Shown here one piece after another: positions 10,177 through 55,566 of a DNA stretch of 64,000 nt. Under the pieces are notes generated by a model. It searched no databases. It was not told where the DNA came from and saw only the letters and a list, made by a program, of their open reading frames with translations. Position 1 is the stretch's first letter. Each line of letters opens with the position of its first letter. Origin of the DNA: Arenimonas terrae (GTDB lineage Bacteria > Pseudomonadota > Gammaproteobacteria > Xanthomonadales > Xanthomonadaceae); contig NZ_SMDR01000001.1 in NCBI RefSeq assembly GCF_006265115.1, forward strand, positions 496,001 through 560,000. The letters run 5' to 3'. The position numbers were made by a program, and so were the translations under genes.

Positions 10177-11184
10177 TCAGGAATGATGGCCATGCGGCGG
10201 CATGCGATCCCGCTCCGCGTGTATGCCCGGCGTCGAGCTTGTCGACAGGGGTTCGTCGGCCGTCGCGCCCCGCAGAGTGCGGCGCCTGATCGCCGAGTAG
10301 AACACCGGCGTCAGGTACAGGCCGAACAGGGTCACGCCGAGCATGCCGGCGAGCACGGTCACGCCCATGACGTTGCGGACCTCGGCGCCGGCGCCCGAAG
10401 CCAGCACCAGCGGCACCACACCGGCAATGAAGGCGAACGACGTCATCACGATCGGTCGCAGGCGCAGCCGCGAGGCTTCGATCGCCGCCTGCACCGGTGT
10501 CCTGCCCTGCCCCTCGAGCTCCCGCGCGAACTCGACGATCAGGATGGCGTTCTTGCAGGCCAGGCCCATCAGCACGACCAGGCCGATCTGCACGAATACG
10601 TTGTTGTCGCCGCCGGTGATCCACACGCCGCCGAGCGCGAACAACAGGCACATCGGCACGATCAGGATCACCGAGAACGGCAGCGACCAGCTTTCGTAGA
10701 GCGCCGCCAGCACCATCAGCACCAGCAGCACGCATAGCGGAAACACCAGCAGGCCGGCATTGCCCTGGCCGACCTGCTGGTAGGTCAGGCCGGTCCACTC
10801 GAAGCTCATGCCGTTCGGCAGCATTTCCCGCGCGAACTGGCCGACGGTGGCAATCGCCTCGCTCGAGGAGACGACGGCCGGGTCGGCGCGCGACACCGCG
10901 GCGCGGTACTCGCGGTCATCGATCCGGAAGAGAAGGTCGCCCGCCTTCACCAGGGCGCCTTCCTCGAACGCAACCTCGGCCAGGTAGCCGGAGACGCGGG
11001 GCCGGATCTCCACCCGTTCCGGTGCTTCCAGACGGCCGGTGAAATCGTCCCATTCGCGCACCTTTTTCTGCACGACCTCGGCGACGTTCACGCCGGCCGG
11101 CGGCGGTGCACCCGGTTCGCCGCCGCGGCTGCAGCCGACCGCCAGGAGCACGAGCAGCGCAAGGAAGGGACGGATCGCAGACAT
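10177..11184 (-). pseudogene. In-frame chimera: RND adaptor N-terminus fused to RND pump C-terminus (deletion remnant)
   Basis: This 335-residue open frame is two half-proteins. Residues 1 to about 100 are the start of a periplasmic adaptor (lipoprotein signal LLAVGC, Cys18, then RLEAPERVEIRPRVSGYL and LVKAGDLLFRIDDREYRAAV). From about residue 104 the sequence is the last part of an AcrB/MexF-type inner-membrane pump (GMSFEWTGLTYQQ, VLAALYESWSLPFSVILIVP, GLACKNAILIVEFAREL, RPIVMTSFAFIAGVVPL). Adaptor and pump genes are normally adjacent in this order, so a single in-frame deletion of roughly 3 kb would create this. The join lies near 10880-10890. The adaptor's later domains and the pump's docking and first membrane parts are absent, so efflux function is very unlikely. 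An assembly collapse is the alternative. Confidence 0.8.
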
Positions 11185-11356
11185 GACGGCTCCTGGGGGA
11201 GGTCGTTCGTGGGCCGGGGTTCCTGCGATCCAGTGTGTTCGGGAGGCTGGACGGCCGCCTCCCTCCAATTGGGGAGACGCGGAGCAATGCCGGCGCCGGC
11301 GTCCGCCGGACCAGTGGCCAGCCCCCCAGGCGCCCAGAGGGCGCTCGATCCTGCCC

Positions 11357-11833
11357 TCAGCTGCCGCGCGACCGGCGCGCCAACGATGCCCGCCGCGCGC
11401 CCAGCGCCAGCACCAGTCCGACCAGGACCATGTGCACCAGGAGCTCCGGCAGGATCCGCGACCACTGCGTGTTCGGTCTCAGCGGTGCGGCCGAAAGCGG
11501 CACCACCAGGTGGTTCATCACCACGTACAGCAGTGCGCCGTAGCCCAGACCCAGCGGCACCACCAGGCCGGCCAGCCGCGGCCAGGCCGCCATCGCCAGC
11601 CAGGGCGGCATCGCCATCAGGCCGATGATCATGAAGTGCAGCATGACGCCCAGCGCCATGACGTCCGCGCCGCCCGAGAATGCATCCGGCCCCAGCACGC
11701 CGCTGGCGATGGCCTGCAGCACCGTGGTCGCGGAGTAACCGCGGAACGGCGCGATCAGGCAGGCGTAGGCCAGGTCGAGGCTGCCGGCCAGCAGCGCGGT
11801 GAACAAAAACAGGCGTGTCGTTGCACGAGTCAT
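11357..11833 (-). CDS. Uncharacterised four-helix membrane protein
   Basis: The 158-residue product has four predicted membrane helices (FLFTALLAGSLDLAYACLI, VMALGVMLHFMIIGLMAM, LAGLVVPLGLGYGALLYVVM, LLVHMVLVGLVLALGA) and a basic C-terminal tail (ARRASLARRSRGS). It resembles small YagU/DUF1440-like inner-membrane proteins in size and layout, but I cannot confirm the family. It is divergent from the AraC-type gene at 12051, about 220 bases away, and may be its target. Confidence 0.65.
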   Translation of the reverse strand: MTRATTRLFLFTALLAGSLDLAYACLIAPFRGYSATTVLQAIASGVLGPDAFSGGADVMALGVMLHFMIIGLMAMPPWLAMAAWPRLAGLVVPLGLGYGALLYVVMNHLVVPLSAAPLRPNTQWSRILPELLVHMVLVGLVLALGARRASLARRSRGS

Positions 11834-12050
11834 GCGGGTGGCGCTCCCCTGGAATGCAGGCGTGACCTTAAGTGAGACCGGACCCGCAAGCGTGTGCCGG
11901 CGCCTGCATTTCGCCGGGCGGCACCGGCCGGCAAACCGAACGTGGAATGAACGCGGCGCATTGGTCCGAAATCCGCCTGCGGCGATTGGTCGGTACGTGC
12001 GCGCGGCCTGCGCCTAGCCTGTCTTCCAATCGCAGGAAGGAGTGCCCGCC

Positions 12051-49538: not shown

Positions 49539-49539
<1 letters not shown>

Positions 49540-50435
49540 TGCGGCCGGCGGCGGCGGACGAATTCGGCGCCACCGCCACGGGCCTGCTGTCGCAGGCCAT
49601 GGCCTCGGACTGGCTGCTGCGCATCGGCCTGGCCCTGCTGATCGCCGGGCTGGGCATGTGGCTGGCGCGCAAGCTGTCGCGCGGCCTGGACCGGGTGATG
49701 GGCCGCTTCGGCGTCGAGCAGATCCTGCGCGACTTCCTGCGCAACCTGGCCTACGCGATCGGCCTGATCGTGGTGTTCGTCGCGGCGCTCGACGCGCTCG
49801 GCGTGCCGACCACCTCGCTGCTGGCGGTGCTGGGTGCCGCCGGCCTGGCCATCGGCCTGGCGCTGAAGGATTCGCTGTCCAATATCGCGTCCGGCGTGAT
49901 GCTGATCGTGCTGCGCCCGTTCCGCGCCGGCGACGCCGTGGTGCTGGCGGGCCAGGAAGGCGTGGTCGAGCAGGTGCGGATCTTCCAGACCGTGCTGCGC
50001 ACCTACCAGAACCACGACGTGATCCTGCCCAACAGCCAGATCACCGCCGCACCGATCGTCAACTACACCGCGCGCCCCCAGCGCCGCATCGACCTGCCGG
50101 TCGGCATCGGCTACGACGACGACCTGGCCACCGCCCGCCGCGTGCTGCTGGGGCTCGCCGAGGCGAATCCGAAGGTGCTGCGCGAGCCGGCCGCCGACGT
50201 GCTGGTGAACAACCTTGGCGAAAGCAGCGTGGACCTGGTGCTGCGGGCCTGGGTGGACACCCCGGACTACGCGGCGGTCCGCAGCGAGCTGACCGAAGCG
50301 GTCACCCGGGAATTCGCCCGTGCCGGCGTCTCCATTCCCTACCCGCAGCGCAGCCTGCACGTGTACCACCACGACGCCGAGGGCCGGCCGCTGGCCCAGC
50401 TCACCGCCGCGGTCGAGGATCCCGACCGGGGCTGA
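49539..50435 (+). CDS. MscS-family mechanosensitive channel
   Basis: The 298-residue protein has three membrane helices (LLRIGLALLIAGLGMWLA, NLAYAIGLIVVFVAALDAL, and the pore helix LLAVLGAAGLAIGLALKDSLSNIASGVM). The MscS beta domain follows (GDAVVLAGQEGVVEQVRIFQTVLRTYQN, LPNSQI) and then an alpha-beta C-terminal domain. It opens under osmotic downshock. It starts one base into the ppsA stop, so it shares the transcript. The upstream open frame is a shadow of ppsA. Confidence 0.93.
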
Positions 50436-50459
50436 TCAGCCGCGCGGTTTTCTCGATCT

Positions 50460-52040
50460 TTACCAGCCCCACTTCAATTTGTCATAGAGCGTCGCGAGCT
50501 TCCTGAAATTGCTCGCGTACGGGCCTTTGGAGTACAGCTTCTCCTCGTTATCCTTGAGAAACCCTCGAAGAAGCTCAAGATCAACTTTCTCTTTTGTCAT
50601 GCACGGGATGAATCCCGAGGCATTCTCAACTGTGGCGACTTGAAGGAGATCCTTCATAGACAGATGTCTGTGCTTGAAGAAAACCTGCTGGTATGCCTTG
50701 ACGCGAAAGTCCCTGTAGTCACGACTAACCCATTTCCCTAGGTCTAGCCCGGACTTCTTGTAGTCTTCTTCATTACGTATGCCAGCCTCATGAAGGTACT
50801 TGAAGACGGGGATATTTCGGCTGTTCTTTCCAGCTCGCTTGATGACGTGCTTAAGAATCTGGTCTGGCCTAAAGTTCCCTTCTTCGTGCAGGACGTCGCG
50901 GAAGAGGTCGTTCGCTTCAATTGCTGCATAGCCGACGTCACCGACCCCGTCGTGGTGATCATCCGGTCCAGACTTATGGTTTGTTTGATTGGCGACGCCT
51001 ACTCCAACTAAAAATTCAACATCCTCATGGTTGTCGATTTCATCGTAGTCGACGACGCAAAGCTTGCTTTCAGGCTCAGAAGATGCGACGAGGGCGTAAA
51101 GCTGCTCTTTGCAGTACCGAAGGACACGAGCTGGAATCTTTCTCTTAACTTCACTGAGCGCCTCAAAAAGTGGGCGCAAATCGTCAGTACTCACCAGTAC
51201 CAGCGGAATCTGAACTCCGTCGATCGTCAAGTATGTGTCGGACACTCCCTCAGGGGCGTCTGCCCGCGGGCGTTGGACGAATATCAGGTTTCGTCGAAGT
51301 TGTTCAACTTGTTCTCGCCCAATGCATAGCGCGATTGCTCGAAGCAAAGATGCGATGTTTTCATCTGCCAGGGAGTATCCGATAAAAATTATCGGGTGCT
51401 CGACAAATATCGTAATCAGCTTTGCGGCGAGGTAGGCGTTCCTATCATTAAATTCCCGATAGTCATCTGCGGTCAGAACCAAGGACGATGGTCTGGTTGA
51501 GCAGCCATGGATCTTGTAGATCTCGCCAATTTGTTGAGGATTTGAGAACAGAAGTTCCTTCTGACCAATAAATACCTTGTAACCGGTAAATATCTGCTCC
51601 AGTAACTGATCCCAGTTGGTCGTAATGACTCCATCAACATTTAGACCAGCGAGCATCTCAAATTCTTGGTAATACTTCGACTTCTTTGCTTTCGCTTGAT
51701 CCAAGGTTAAGAGGTAGCGCGAAATTTCTATTCGCAACGCTGAAGTGCTGTCCTTGATTCGCGCTTTTTCTTTTTCCACCGAATCTTTGTAGTCAGGGCT
51801 TGACCACCAATGCTCGTTGAAATCTTTTGCAAGGAGGCCGGCCGCTACAGGAAAACTCCCATCTGCAGCAGCCAAGTAGTACTCGAATGGTTTTCCGCCA
51901 ACGCAGAATCGTGAAAGGAGGCCATGCCAGTCCTCGAGCTCAACATAACGCCTCGAAAAGCCAGATCCAACGAATAGAAACGGACCTGCCTGACGGCTGT
52001 TTAAGAGCTTGACAAGATCGTCCTTCATCAAAGGATCCAT
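50460..52040 (-). CDS. SIR2-like domain protein, candidate anti-phage NAD+ hydrolase
   Basis: The 526-residue protein has a SIR2-like N-terminal domain with GSGFS (25-29), TTNWD (140-144, catalytic Asn142), IYKIHG (His178) and GYSLAD (221-226). Family members with this pattern hydrolyse NAD+ in phage defence. The C-terminal half (about 310-526) has no motif I recognise. The gene is much poorer in G+C than its neighbours (51361-51420 counts 26 of 60; 50101-50160 in mscS counts 46 of 60), indicating transfer. It follows the cyclase gene by 12 bases on the same strand. Start may be ATG 52040 or 52028. Confidence 0.85.
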   Translation of the reverse strand: MDPLMKDDLVKLLNSRQAGPFLFVGSGFSRRYVELEDWHGLLSRFCVGGKPFEYYLAAADGSFPVAAGLLAKDFNEHWWSSPDYKDSVEKEKARIKDSTSALRIEISRYLLTLDQAKAKKSKYYQEFEMLAGLNVDGVITTNWDQLLEQIFTGYKVFIGQKELLFSNPQQIGEIYKIHGCSTRPSSLVLTADDYREFNDRNAYLAAKLITIFVEHPIIFIGYSLADENIASLLRAIALCIGREQVEQLRRNLIFVQRPRADAPEGVSDTYLTIDGVQIPLVLVSTDDLRPLFEALSEVKRKIPARVLRYCKEQLYALVASSEPESKLCVVDYDEIDNHEDVEFLVGVGVANQTNHKSGPDDHHDGVGDVGYAAIEANDLFRDVLHEEGNFRPDQILKHVIKRAGKNSRNIPVFKYLHEAGIRNEEDYKKSGLDLGKWVSRDYRDFRVKAYQQVFFKHRHLSMKDLLQVATVENASGFIPCMTKEKVDLELLRGFLKDNEEKLYSKGPYASNFRKLATLYDKLKWGW

Positions 52041-52052
52041 CCTTATCTTCTG

Positions 52053-54992
52053 TTAGCCGGAGACTCGATTTCGTCCGTTGTTCTTGGCTTCGTACAGGCG
52101 CTGGTCGGCGCGAGACACCAGCCGCTCGTGGTGCGACAGGCCGGTGCGTTCGGCCAGGCCGATGCTGGCGGTGATGTTGAGGCCCGGCGCGAAGTCGCTG
52201 CAGTCGATCGCCTCGATCGCCTTGCGCAGGCGTTCGGCCTGCGCCATCGCCTCGGCCATGCCGGCCAACGGGAACAGCAGCGCGAACTCCTCGCCGCCCC
52301 AGCGCGCCACGCGCTCGTCGCCGCGCCAGCGGCCGACGTTCTCGCGGCCCATCTCGGCCTGCATGACCTTGGCGACCCGGCGCAGCGCCTCGTCGCCGAC
52401 GTCGTGCGAGAAGCCGTCGTTGATGCGCTTGAAGTGGTCGATGTCGAGTAGGCCGAAGCACAGCGCCTGGTCGTTGAGCACGGCGTCCTGGTAGGCGGCC
52501 GCCAGGGTCTCGTCCATGCTGCGGCGGTTCGGCAGGCCGGTCAGCGCGTCGGTGCGCGAGAGCTGTTCGAAGATCTCGCTCTGTTTGCGGATGGTCTCGT
52601 TCTTCTGTTCGAGCTCGGTGTTCTTCTCGCTCAGCGCCCGCGTACGGTCCTCCACCACGCGGCTGAGCTGGGCTTCGCGCGATTTGAGCTGGCTGACCCG
52701 GGCCCGGTACAGGCCGTACAGGAACAATGCCAGCGTCGCGCCGGCCACCGGCAGGAACCAGGCGCGCTGGTACAGGCGCGGCTGGATCTCGAAGTTGACC
52801 GAAGCAGTTTCCGGGCTCCAGCCGCTGCCGCGCTGGGCGGCGCTGACCTGGAAGCGATAGCGGCCCGGCGGGAGGTTCGTGTACTGGGCGTTGCGGCGCT
52901 GGTTGCGCTCGACCCAGCCGTTGTCGAAACCTTCGAGGCGGTAGCGGTAGCGGATCTGCTCGGGCGTGCGGTAGCTCAGGCTGACGTAGTCGAGCTCGAG
53001 CTTGCGCGTGCCCGGCGGCAGCACCAGGTTGCCGTTGGCGCTGGCGTTGCGGTCGTCCACGCGCAGGCCTTCGATCACCACCGGTGGCGGCGCCAGCTGG
53101 TAACGCGGCAGCTGGTCGGGCTGGACCACGGACACGCCCTTGGCGGTGGCGACCCAGATGCTGCCGTCCGCAGCGCGCAGCGCGGCGGGACCGGCGCCGC
53201 CGTTGCACTGGGCGCTGCCCATGCCGTCGGGTTCGGCGAACTGCTGGTAGTCCAGGCGCGGCTGGCGGCCGTCGGCCACGGCCTCCATCTCGTCGCGGCG
53301 CACGTAGACCACGCCGGCGTTGGAGCTGAGCCAGAAGTTGCCGTAGCTGTCGACCACGACCTGGAAGATGGTGTCCACCGGCAGGCCGTGCACCGAACCG
53401 ACGATGCGCAGCTCCTCGCCGCGCAGGCGCACCACGCCGCGGTCGGTGGCGAACCAGACGGTGCCGTCCTCGTCCTCGTGCATGCCGAAGACGTCCTGCG
53501 CCTGTTCGAGCGCGCTCAGGTCGTAGGGCGTGGCCTTGCCGTTGGTGATGCGGGCGGCGCCATTGGTGGTGCCGACCCAGAGGTCGCCGCGCCGGGTCTC
53601 GAACAGGCTCAGGATGAAATTGCGTGGCAGGCCGTGTTCCTCGCGCAGCACGTCGGTCTGGCCGTCCTTGCGCCGCATCAAGCCGCGCGAGGTGCCTACC
53701 CACAGCGTGCCGTCGCGGCCGGCAACCACGGCCCGCACCTGGTTCGAGGGCAGCCCACTCTCGCTGTTCAGGCGTTCGCGCACCGCCCCGCCCTGCCAGC
53801 GCGCCAGGCCGGTGGAATAGGTGCCGACCCAGACGCTGTCGCCGTCTTCGGCCAGGCTGAGGATGGCGTCTCCGGACAGGGCTTCGGTCTGCTCGACCTT
53901 TTCGTCCTGCCAGCGGTCCAGGCCGCGGCTGGTGCCGATCCAGATGCTGCCGTCCTTGCCCTGCAGCAGGGCCCGCACATAGTCGTCGGACAGGCCGTGG
54001 TGGCTGTCGAGCGTGATGAAGGGCGTGTCGGCGAAGCGCAGCAGGCCGGCATTGGTGCCGACCCAGACGCTGCCCTCGCGGTCGGCGAAGAGCGAGGCCA
54101 CGCGGTTGTTGGGCAGGCCGGCGGCGGCGTCGAAGGACTCCAGGCCGCGTTCGCCCAGGCGCAGCAGGCCGCGGTTGACGGTGCCGATCCACAGGCTGCC
54201 CTGGGCGTCGATCTGCAGGCTGGGGATGGCCTCGGCCGGGAAGTCCGGCGTCACCAGGTTGAAGCGCCCACTCTTGCCGACGTAGACGCCCTTCTCGGTG
54301 CCGACGTAGAGGTCGCCGTCATCAGCCAGGGCCAGGCTGAAGGCCGAGCCGGTGGGCAGGCCGGCGTCCACCGAGAACGCCTGCACGCGGTCGCCCTCGA
54401 TGCGCGCCACGCCGTCGCCGGTCGCGACCCATACGGCGCCCGCGCCGTCTTCCAGCAGCGCGAAGGTGTCGTCGGAGGGCAGGCCCTGTTCGGTGCGGAA
54501 ATGGGTCGCCTGGCCGTTGTCCAGGCGTGTCACGCCGCGGCTTTCGGTGGCCACCCAGAGCCGGCCGGCGTGGTCTTCGAGCGCCGCGGCCAGTTCGTCC
54601 TGGCCCAGGCCCTCGGCGATGCCGTAAGTGGTCCATTCCTCGCCGCGCAGCACACTGACGCCGCCGCGCGACGTCGCCACCACCAGCGCGCCGCTGTGGC
54701 CCACGCGCACCGAGCGGATGCCGTTGTCGCGGATCTGCGGCACGTTCTGCCGGCCGAAGCTGCGGAACTCCTGGCCGTTGTAGCGCACCACGCCTTCCCA
54801 GGTCGCGAACCAGAGGTAGCCTTCGGGCGTCTGGGCGATGCCGTTGACCTGGTTGTGCGGCAGGCCGTCGCGCGTGGTCCAGACCTCGCGCGAATAGGTG
54901 GCCAGCGACTTTTCCTCCAGCGCCGCCGCAGGCATGGGCAGCGCGGCCGCCAGCGTCACGAGGGCGAGGATCAGGCGGAGCGTCAGATTCAT
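52053..54992 (-). CDS. Beta-propeller (Reg_prop) sensor diguanylate cyclase
   Basis: The 979-residue protein has a signal peptide (LTLRLILALVTLAAALPMPAAA), about a dozen Reg_prop blades forming two beta-propellers (repeats such as LWVGTSRGLMRR and IWIGTSRGLDRW), a Y_Y_Y domain (about 630-730), one membrane helix (AWFLPVAGATLALFLYGLY), a coiled coil and a GGDEF domain. The active site reads GGEEF (899-903), an accepted catalytic variant, so c-di-GMP synthesis is expected. The upstream RxxD inhibitory site is imperfect (RGDE). The ligand sensed in the periplasm is unknown. It lies 19 bases after orn on the same strand. Confidence 0.9.
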   Translation of the reverse strand: MNLTLRLILALVTLAAALPMPAAALEEKSLATYSREVWTTRDGLPHNQVNGIAQTPEGYLWFATWEGVVRYNGQEFRSFGRQNVPQIRDNGIRSVRVGHSGALVVATSRGGVSVLRGEEWTTYGIAEGLGQDELAAALEDHAGRLWVATESRGVTRLDNGQATHFRTEQGLPSDDTFALLEDGAGAVWVATGDGVARIEGDRVQAFSVDAGLPTGSAFSLALADDGDLYVGTEKGVYVGKSGRFNLVTPDFPAEAIPSLQIDAQGSLWIGTVNRGLLRLGERGLESFDAAAGLPNNRVASLFADREGSVWVGTNAGLLRFADTPFITLDSHHGLSDDYVRALLQGKDGSIWIGTSRGLDRWQDEKVEQTEALSGDAILSLAEDGDSVWVGTYSTGLARWQGGAVRERLNSESGLPSNQVRAVVAGRDGTLWVGTSRGLMRRKDGQTDVLREEHGLPRNFILSLFETRRGDLWVGTTNGAARITNGKATPYDLSALEQAQDVFGMHEDEDGTVWFATDRGVVRLRGEELRIVGSVHGLPVDTIFQVVVDSYGNFWLSSNAGVVYVRRDEMEAVADGRQPRLDYQQFAEPDGMGSAQCNGGAGPAALRAADGSIWVATAKGVSVVQPDQLPRYQLAPPPVVIEGLRVDDRNASANGNLVLPPGTRKLELDYVSLSYRTPEQIRYRYRLEGFDNGWVERNQRRNAQYTNLPPGRYRFQVSAAQRGSGWSPETASVNFEIQPRLYQRAWFLPVAGATLALFLYGLYRARVSQLKSREAQLSRVVEDRTRALSEKNTELEQKNETIRKQSEIFEQLSRTDALTGLPNRRSMDETLAAAYQDAVLNDQALCFGLLDIDHFKRINDGFSHDVGDEALRRVAKVMQAEMGRENVGRWRGDERVARWGGEEFALLFPLAGMAEAMAQAERLRKAIEAIDCSDFAPGLNITASIGLAERTGLSHHERLVSRADQRLYEAKNNGRNRVSG

Positions 54993-55011
54993 GCCGAGGA
55001 CTCGTTGGGGC

Positions 55012-55566
55012 TCAGAGGCCGCCCAGTTTTCCCATGTGCTGGCGATAGTGCGCCAGCTCCTTGACCGACTCGCGGATGTCCGACAACGCGGTGTGTGCAC
55101 CCACCTTGGCCACGCCCTCGAGCACGGACGGCGACCAGCGCCGGGCCAGTTCCTTGAGCGTGGAGACGTCGAGGTTGCGGTAGTGGAAATAGCGCTCCAG
55201 CCGCGGCATGTGCCGCACCAGGAAACGCCGGTCCTGGCAGATCGAATTGCCGCAGATCGGCGACTTGCCGGCCGGCACCCAGTGGCTGAGGAACTCCACG
55301 GTCAGCGCCTCGGCCTGGGCCATGCTCACCTGGCTGTCGAGCACGCGCTGCCACAGGCCGGAGCGGCTGTGGGTGCCGCGGTTCCATTCGTCCATCGCAT
55401 GCAGGCGCTCGACGGGATGGTGGATGGCGAGTTCGGGGCCCTCGGCCAGCACATTGAGCTGGCTGTCGGTGACCAGGGTCGCGATCTCCAGCACCGAGTC
55501 GGTGTCCGGATCCAGGCCGGTCATCTCCAGGTCGATCCAGATCAGGTTCTGCTCGTTGGCGGGCAT
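55012..55566 (-). CDS. orn: Oligoribonuclease Orn
   Basis: Orn is the essential 3'-5' exonuclease that clears short RNAs, including pGpG from c-di-GMP breakdown. The 184-residue DEDDh enzyme has [14 protein letters not shown] near the start, [11 protein letters not shown] in the middle and [14 protein letters not shown] at the end. It stands directly before a diguanylate cyclase gene, so c-di-GMP production and pGpG removal may be co-expressed. Confidence 0.95.

Follow-up and report, generated by a model that had tools for sequence, protein, structure and literature searches.

The gene analyzed here is located at positions 50460..52040 on the minus strand of a 64,000-nucleotide stretch of the Arenimonas terrae genome (the window; contig NZ_SMDR01000001.1, positions 496,001 to 560,000). 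It encodes a SIR2-family protein of 526 amino acids that matches the PADLOC profile PDC-S25 and the PHROG 2695 profile over its full length. The open reading frame (ORF) starts with ATG, is unbroken over 526 codons up to the stop codon at 50460-50462, and retains the residues conserved in the family. It holds the motifs GSGFS, TTNWD, KIHG, and GYSLAD, which the first-pass annotation of this DNA, made from the sequence alone, had described as a complete SIR2-like set. Translation may instead begin at a second in-frame ATG (codon 5), which lies about three residues or less from where several relatives start. The G+C content of the gene is 48.8%, compared to 70.3% for the remainder of the window, and when slices of 1581 bases were moved across the window in steps of 100 bases, all those below 60% overlapped the gene, confirming the abrupt drop seen earlier. 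The codon fit (mean log fraction) was -1.76, far under that of the neighboring cyclase gene (-0.61).

On the left, the SIR2 gene is flanked by a convergent gene for an MscS-type channel (49539..50435, plus strand), recognized by its Pfam MS_channel domains. On the right, the gene for a Reg_prop/Y_Y_Y/GGDEF cyclase (minus strand; 52053..55058 was the range used in searches, the ORF being listed as 52053-55100 when read from GTG) ends with its stop codon 12 bases before the SIR2 ATG. The surroundings are ordinary and encode PEP synthase-like, MscS, Reg_prop/Y_Y_Y/GGDEF, and RNase_T-family proteins. Among the 10 neighbors scanned, none was a defence or mobile-element protein and none an integrase or recombinase. 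The repeats listed around the gene were all short and are taken as chance, and the closest transfer RNA genes lie about 5 kb off. The locus thus has no visible partner, integrase, or convincing repeat, as first noted.

Acquisition of the SIR2 gene

Searching 27 genomes of the same genus (own included) with the cyclase gave matches in 16 at E <= 1e-100. In eight of the loci fetched, each from a different genome (L023, L024, L025, L026, L029, L030, L031, L034), mscS was found beside the cyclase gene, and in none of these eight was the SIR2 gene present, the two matches being only 10-119 bases apart. The remaining fetched cyclase loci had no mscS match in the stretch fetched and are uninformative on the insertion site. 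Because of these empty sites in relatives and the deviating G+C content, we conclude that the SIR2 gene was horizontally acquired. The presence/absence comparison proposed with the first-pass annotation thus bore out its claim of an insertion between core genes.

Comparison of the eight empty sites together with the codon fit of the cyclase end placed the acquired DNA at about 50444..52076, beginning just past the stop region shared by mscS and the cyclase gene and ending with the last cyclase codons that look foreign. On the left, the junction retains TGATCAGCCGC, which is also present in L034, the closest empty site. On the right, the final 10 cyclase codons had the 8th lowest codon fit among 992 windows scored, and four of the final seven sense codons (52053-52076) are rare among the genes of the 64,000-nucleotide stretch, as if brought by the incoming DNA, which may have recombined inside the cyclase 3′ end. 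Both ends are unmarked, with no convincing repeat, no transfer RNA gene, and no integrase among the neighbors scanned. The most similar cyclase (91%), that of L034/L038 in genome G322, matches in two pieces that lie in different frames and cover residues 39-441 and 454-1001 of the query.

Domains and family of the SIR2 protein

In a Pfam scan, SIR2_2 was found on residues 137-261 (E = 4.6e-26), and the only other family listed was DUF5434 with an E value of 0.38, under the cut-off. Residues 1-300 (51141..52040, minus strand) form a ThsA-like SIR2 catalytic domain; in a fold search this half was closest to ThsA and the nearest structures were NAD+ hydrolases (NADases). The predicted catalytic residues are Asn142 of TTNWD (51615..51617), which aligns with a ThsA residue that is Ala in the 8bto/8btp chain and Asn in 6lhx, and His178 of KIHG (51507..51509), which aligns with His146 of KomC, the residue altered in PDB entry 9xvc (position counted by hand on the printed alignment). 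Position 142 is Asn and position 178 is His in all rows of alignments A1 (15/15) and A2 (59/59). The relatives in A2 were found with two peptide patterns, one holding TTN(Y/W)D and the other FxGYS, and His178 is in neither. A zinc ribbon with two CxxC-type cysteine pairs in the first 320 residues occurs in none of the 59 A2 rows and is lacking in the window protein, which does not fit a canonical sirtuin deacetylase.

The catalytic domain is followed by a linker helix (residues 304-319) and a low-confidence stretch, together residues 301-367 (50940..51140, minus strand); in the structure model, the 10-residue mean of the predicted local distance difference test (pLDDT) was 46-65 across residues 301-370. 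Residues 368-526 (50463..50939, minus strand) form an all-helical C-terminal domain, the proposed sensor or activation domain, with 10-residue means of 84-96 from residue 371 onward. Residues 301-526 were modelled without strands, also when modelled alone. The structure prediction suggested earlier thus gave a confident model, but a PDB fold search with this domain gave no convincing match. The domain diverges faster. In eleven relatives (L053, L055, L061, L105, L117, L119, L127, L130, L132, L133, L135), the SIR2 half is kept but is followed by another tail, about 120-150 residues long; a DNxYH stretch is present in nine of these tails, and the four that were scanned had no Pfam match to the tail.

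PDC-S25 matched residues 5-525 on positions 10-515 of 517 (E = 3.7e-182) and PHROG 2695 residues 10-525 on positions 4-526 of 531 (E = 4.6e-116). Both families equal the window protein in length and architecture, with no structural difference. The C-terminal half called unrecognised at first is therefore covered by catalogued profiles, and of the proposed single-gene abortive-infection system of new architecture, the probable defence NADase without a partner stands, while the new architecture does not. PADLOC lists PDC-S25 as a single-gene phage-defence candidate, and PHROGs list 2695 with unknown function. No published test or characterisation of either was found and the exact term PDC-S25 was absent from the papers searched. 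The refuting case named in the first-pass annotation, a characterised family covering the full length, is thus borne out in part, as far as the catalogue entry goes. The family may conceivably have been tested earlier under a different name. The excerpts available of six papers (PMC11514479, PMC9519451, PMC10952713, PMC9122126, PMC12322248, PMC9503650) deal with SIR2 systems such as SIR2-HerA, DSR, and Thoeris, and mention no system of this architecture by name. In these excerpts, uncharacterised SIR2 genes are reported in phage and satellite hotspots (PMC9122126) and a Sir2 homologue is among the selected E. coli systems (PMC9519451), either of which might belong to PDC-S25. The window gene is a real, acquired member of a catalogued family of single-gene SIR2 defence candidates and not a new kind of system.

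Relatives and their neighborhoods

Full-length homologues were present in only 4 of 395 genomes of the same taxonomic family (own included; the others 62%, 59%, and 51% identical), and orthologues in all relatives, which the first-pass annotation had considered, are thus not seen. A further 16 of these genomes matched solely in the SIR2 region or slightly past it. With the PDC-S25 model, 6 of 398 genomes of the phylum matched at E <= 1e-30, compared to none of 14 control genomes. Four of the matches, counting that of the own genome, span practically the full length, and one of these four contains a TAG; the other two are partial (profile positions 10-378 and 308-514). A protein search of 369 genomes of the class gave four matches at E <= 1e-8, all except the own limited to the SIR2 region, and the genome_contigs search one Marinomonas relative with 61% identity. 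Plasmids contributed 195 matching records, seven of them covering at least 80% of the query, and phage records nine, none with this coverage. From 160 relatives in viral contigs, 80 were kept, of which 68 matched the A1 profile at full length; many of the contigs are presumed to be prophages. In a tree of 85 rows, the window protein grouped with the Marinomonas protein and one viral-contig protein, apart from the homologues of its own taxonomic family, which fits horizontal movement; the support was 94, just short of the 95 starred by the program. One family copy (L062; G1072:C2:149725-150297) is without its 5′ part; what remains, the C-terminal part, is immediately preceded by IS3-like transposase ORFs.

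Unlike the window locus, many relatives have integrases or recombinases nearby. Across 69 full-length loci no neighbor family recurs family-wide: the two biggest neighbor clusters (17 and 12 loci) vary in position, and a cluster fixed at -1 (10 loci) is confined to one clade of closely related members. Together with the lack of a defence neighbor at the window locus, this agrees with a single-gene system. Ten closely related members on viral contigs (L102, L109, L111-L115, L129, L131, L134) have the -1 neighbor in common and mostly also -2, -3, and +1/+2, so that within this group of related phages the family gene occupies a single fixed location. At L143, an ORF of 322 residues (10926-11891) beside the G178 homologue is lower in G+C and matched nothing in Pfam; it may be additional cargo.

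Proposed function and comparison with known systems

The SIR2 protein is probably a defence NADase, as judged from sequence and model. We put at roughly 60% the probability that the acquired gene encodes a single-gene anti-phage protein combining a SIR2 NADase with a C-terminal sensor, which drains NAD+ and aborts the phage cycle. The N-terminal domain would hydrolyze NAD+ and be kept inactive in healthy cells; the helical domain would detect infection by recognizing a phage protein or a ligand produced during infection; the SIR2 domains would then be released or assembled, and NAD+ depletion would lead to abortive infection. We infer activity, defence role, sensor, and trigger from the gene and its acquisition, the full-length family, the ThsA-like model with conserved catalytic residues, the lack of a shared partner, and the mobile-element and restriction neighborhoods of relatives. 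More tentatively, and with the odds rather against it, the helical fold might be an undescribed phage sensor and the family a modular one-gene NADase platform, in which the SIR2 half is joined to this domain or to another short tail, carried chiefly by temperate phages against competitors.

Several observations weigh against a defence NADase with its own sensor. The invariance of Asn142 and GYS in A2 is partly built in, because the search patterns contain these motifs, and 52 of the 59 rows fit the TTN(Y/W)D pattern. No known fold was recognized in the C-terminal domain, so that its proposed sensor role is drawn from divergence and swapping alone. Of the 69 full-length loci, just 13 had a tyrosine integrase and just 7 a serine recombinase within four ORFs, as counted from the seeds used, and 2 of 13 relative loci (L143 and L147, with three and one neighbors scanned) showed no mobile-element or restriction neighbor. 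PDC names derive from association, not from a test, and by the neighbors scanned the window copy lies outside any recognisable defence island or mobile element. Finally, no sigma-70-like promoter match was found in 50300-52400; this and the short same-strand gap behind the cyclase gene suggest that the two genes may be co-transcribed.

The lack of a promoter-like match, together with the tight packing, the still foreign codon make-up, and the many relatives in viral contigs and on plasmids, would also suit a gene for superinfection exclusion or plasmid competition that was stranded on the chromosome and is perhaps no longer expressed or useful. We regard this as unlikely, since the intact frame and the kept family residues speak against a long period of neglect, though they would also be expected of a gene that arrived recently. 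Less probable still is a toxin or regulator that modifies macromolecules as an ADP-ribosyltransferase or deacylase: the sirtuin fold is capable of ADP-ribosylation, and PMC9503650 proposes that certain phage sirtuins have this activity, among them some that are paired with a Macro-domain or HerA gene, but the zinc-ribbon cysteines are absent, the nearest structures hydrolyze NAD+, and no Macro or HerA gene was found among the neighbors scanned. Very improbable is an orphan Thoeris-like effector answering a cyclic ADP-ribose-type signal from a TIR protein encoded elsewhere, for which the closeness to ThsA and one TIR_2/ThsB_TIR match about 383 kb away (C1:931015-931347, L150, in a 406-aa open frame) could be cited, because a SLOG domain (no Pfam match up to E 10; C-terminal half without strands) and, among the 10 neighbors scanned, a TIR gene are missing. 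For 108 neighbors of full-length relatives, 58 Pfam families matched, and the 25 of these that were shown include no TIR family.

If a sensor-coupled NADase is the correct interpretation, one gene of about 1.6 kb senses infection and destroys NAD+ without a partner at half the length of DSR2, and a compact, widespread family for which no published test was found becomes a ready target, in which the different tails allow direct tests of which half picks the trigger. For the host genome, one more acquired defence-type gene is an ordinary finding, and the gene is of interest as a test case rather than as a new kind of system.

Among known systems, SIR2-HerA does not apply, as no HerA ATPase was found among the 10 neighbors scanned, and neither does SPARSA (SIR2-APAZ with a short prokaryotic Argonaute): the Aga_SIR2 matches of PADLOC were weak (best E 0.0073) and confined to parts of the SIR2 region, and no Argonaute was found among these neighbors. 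KomC of Kongming and Avs5 share the SIR2 domain, but neither a Kom partner nor a STAND ATPase was recognized at the locus or in the protein. The proposed combination of NADase effector and built-in sensor in one protein recalls DSR2; however, DSR1 and DSR2 comprise about 1000-1250 residues compared to 526, the Dsr2 score was 22.8 bits against a cut-off of 1400, and the matches were partial (residues 110-226 and 138-325 for two PADLOC Dsr1 models, 138-224 for PADLOC Dsr2, and 138-228 for NCBIfam Dsr2), with no sequence match in the C-terminal half, so that membership was rejected. Thoeris ThsA shares, as judged by sequence and fold, the SIR2 NADase domain and its catalytic Asn and His, but the 10 neighbors scanned include no TIR protein that could be a ThsB, and where ThsA carries a C-terminal SLOG domain (PMC9503650), the window protein has an all-helical domain, which would make its sensor unlike that of ThsA.
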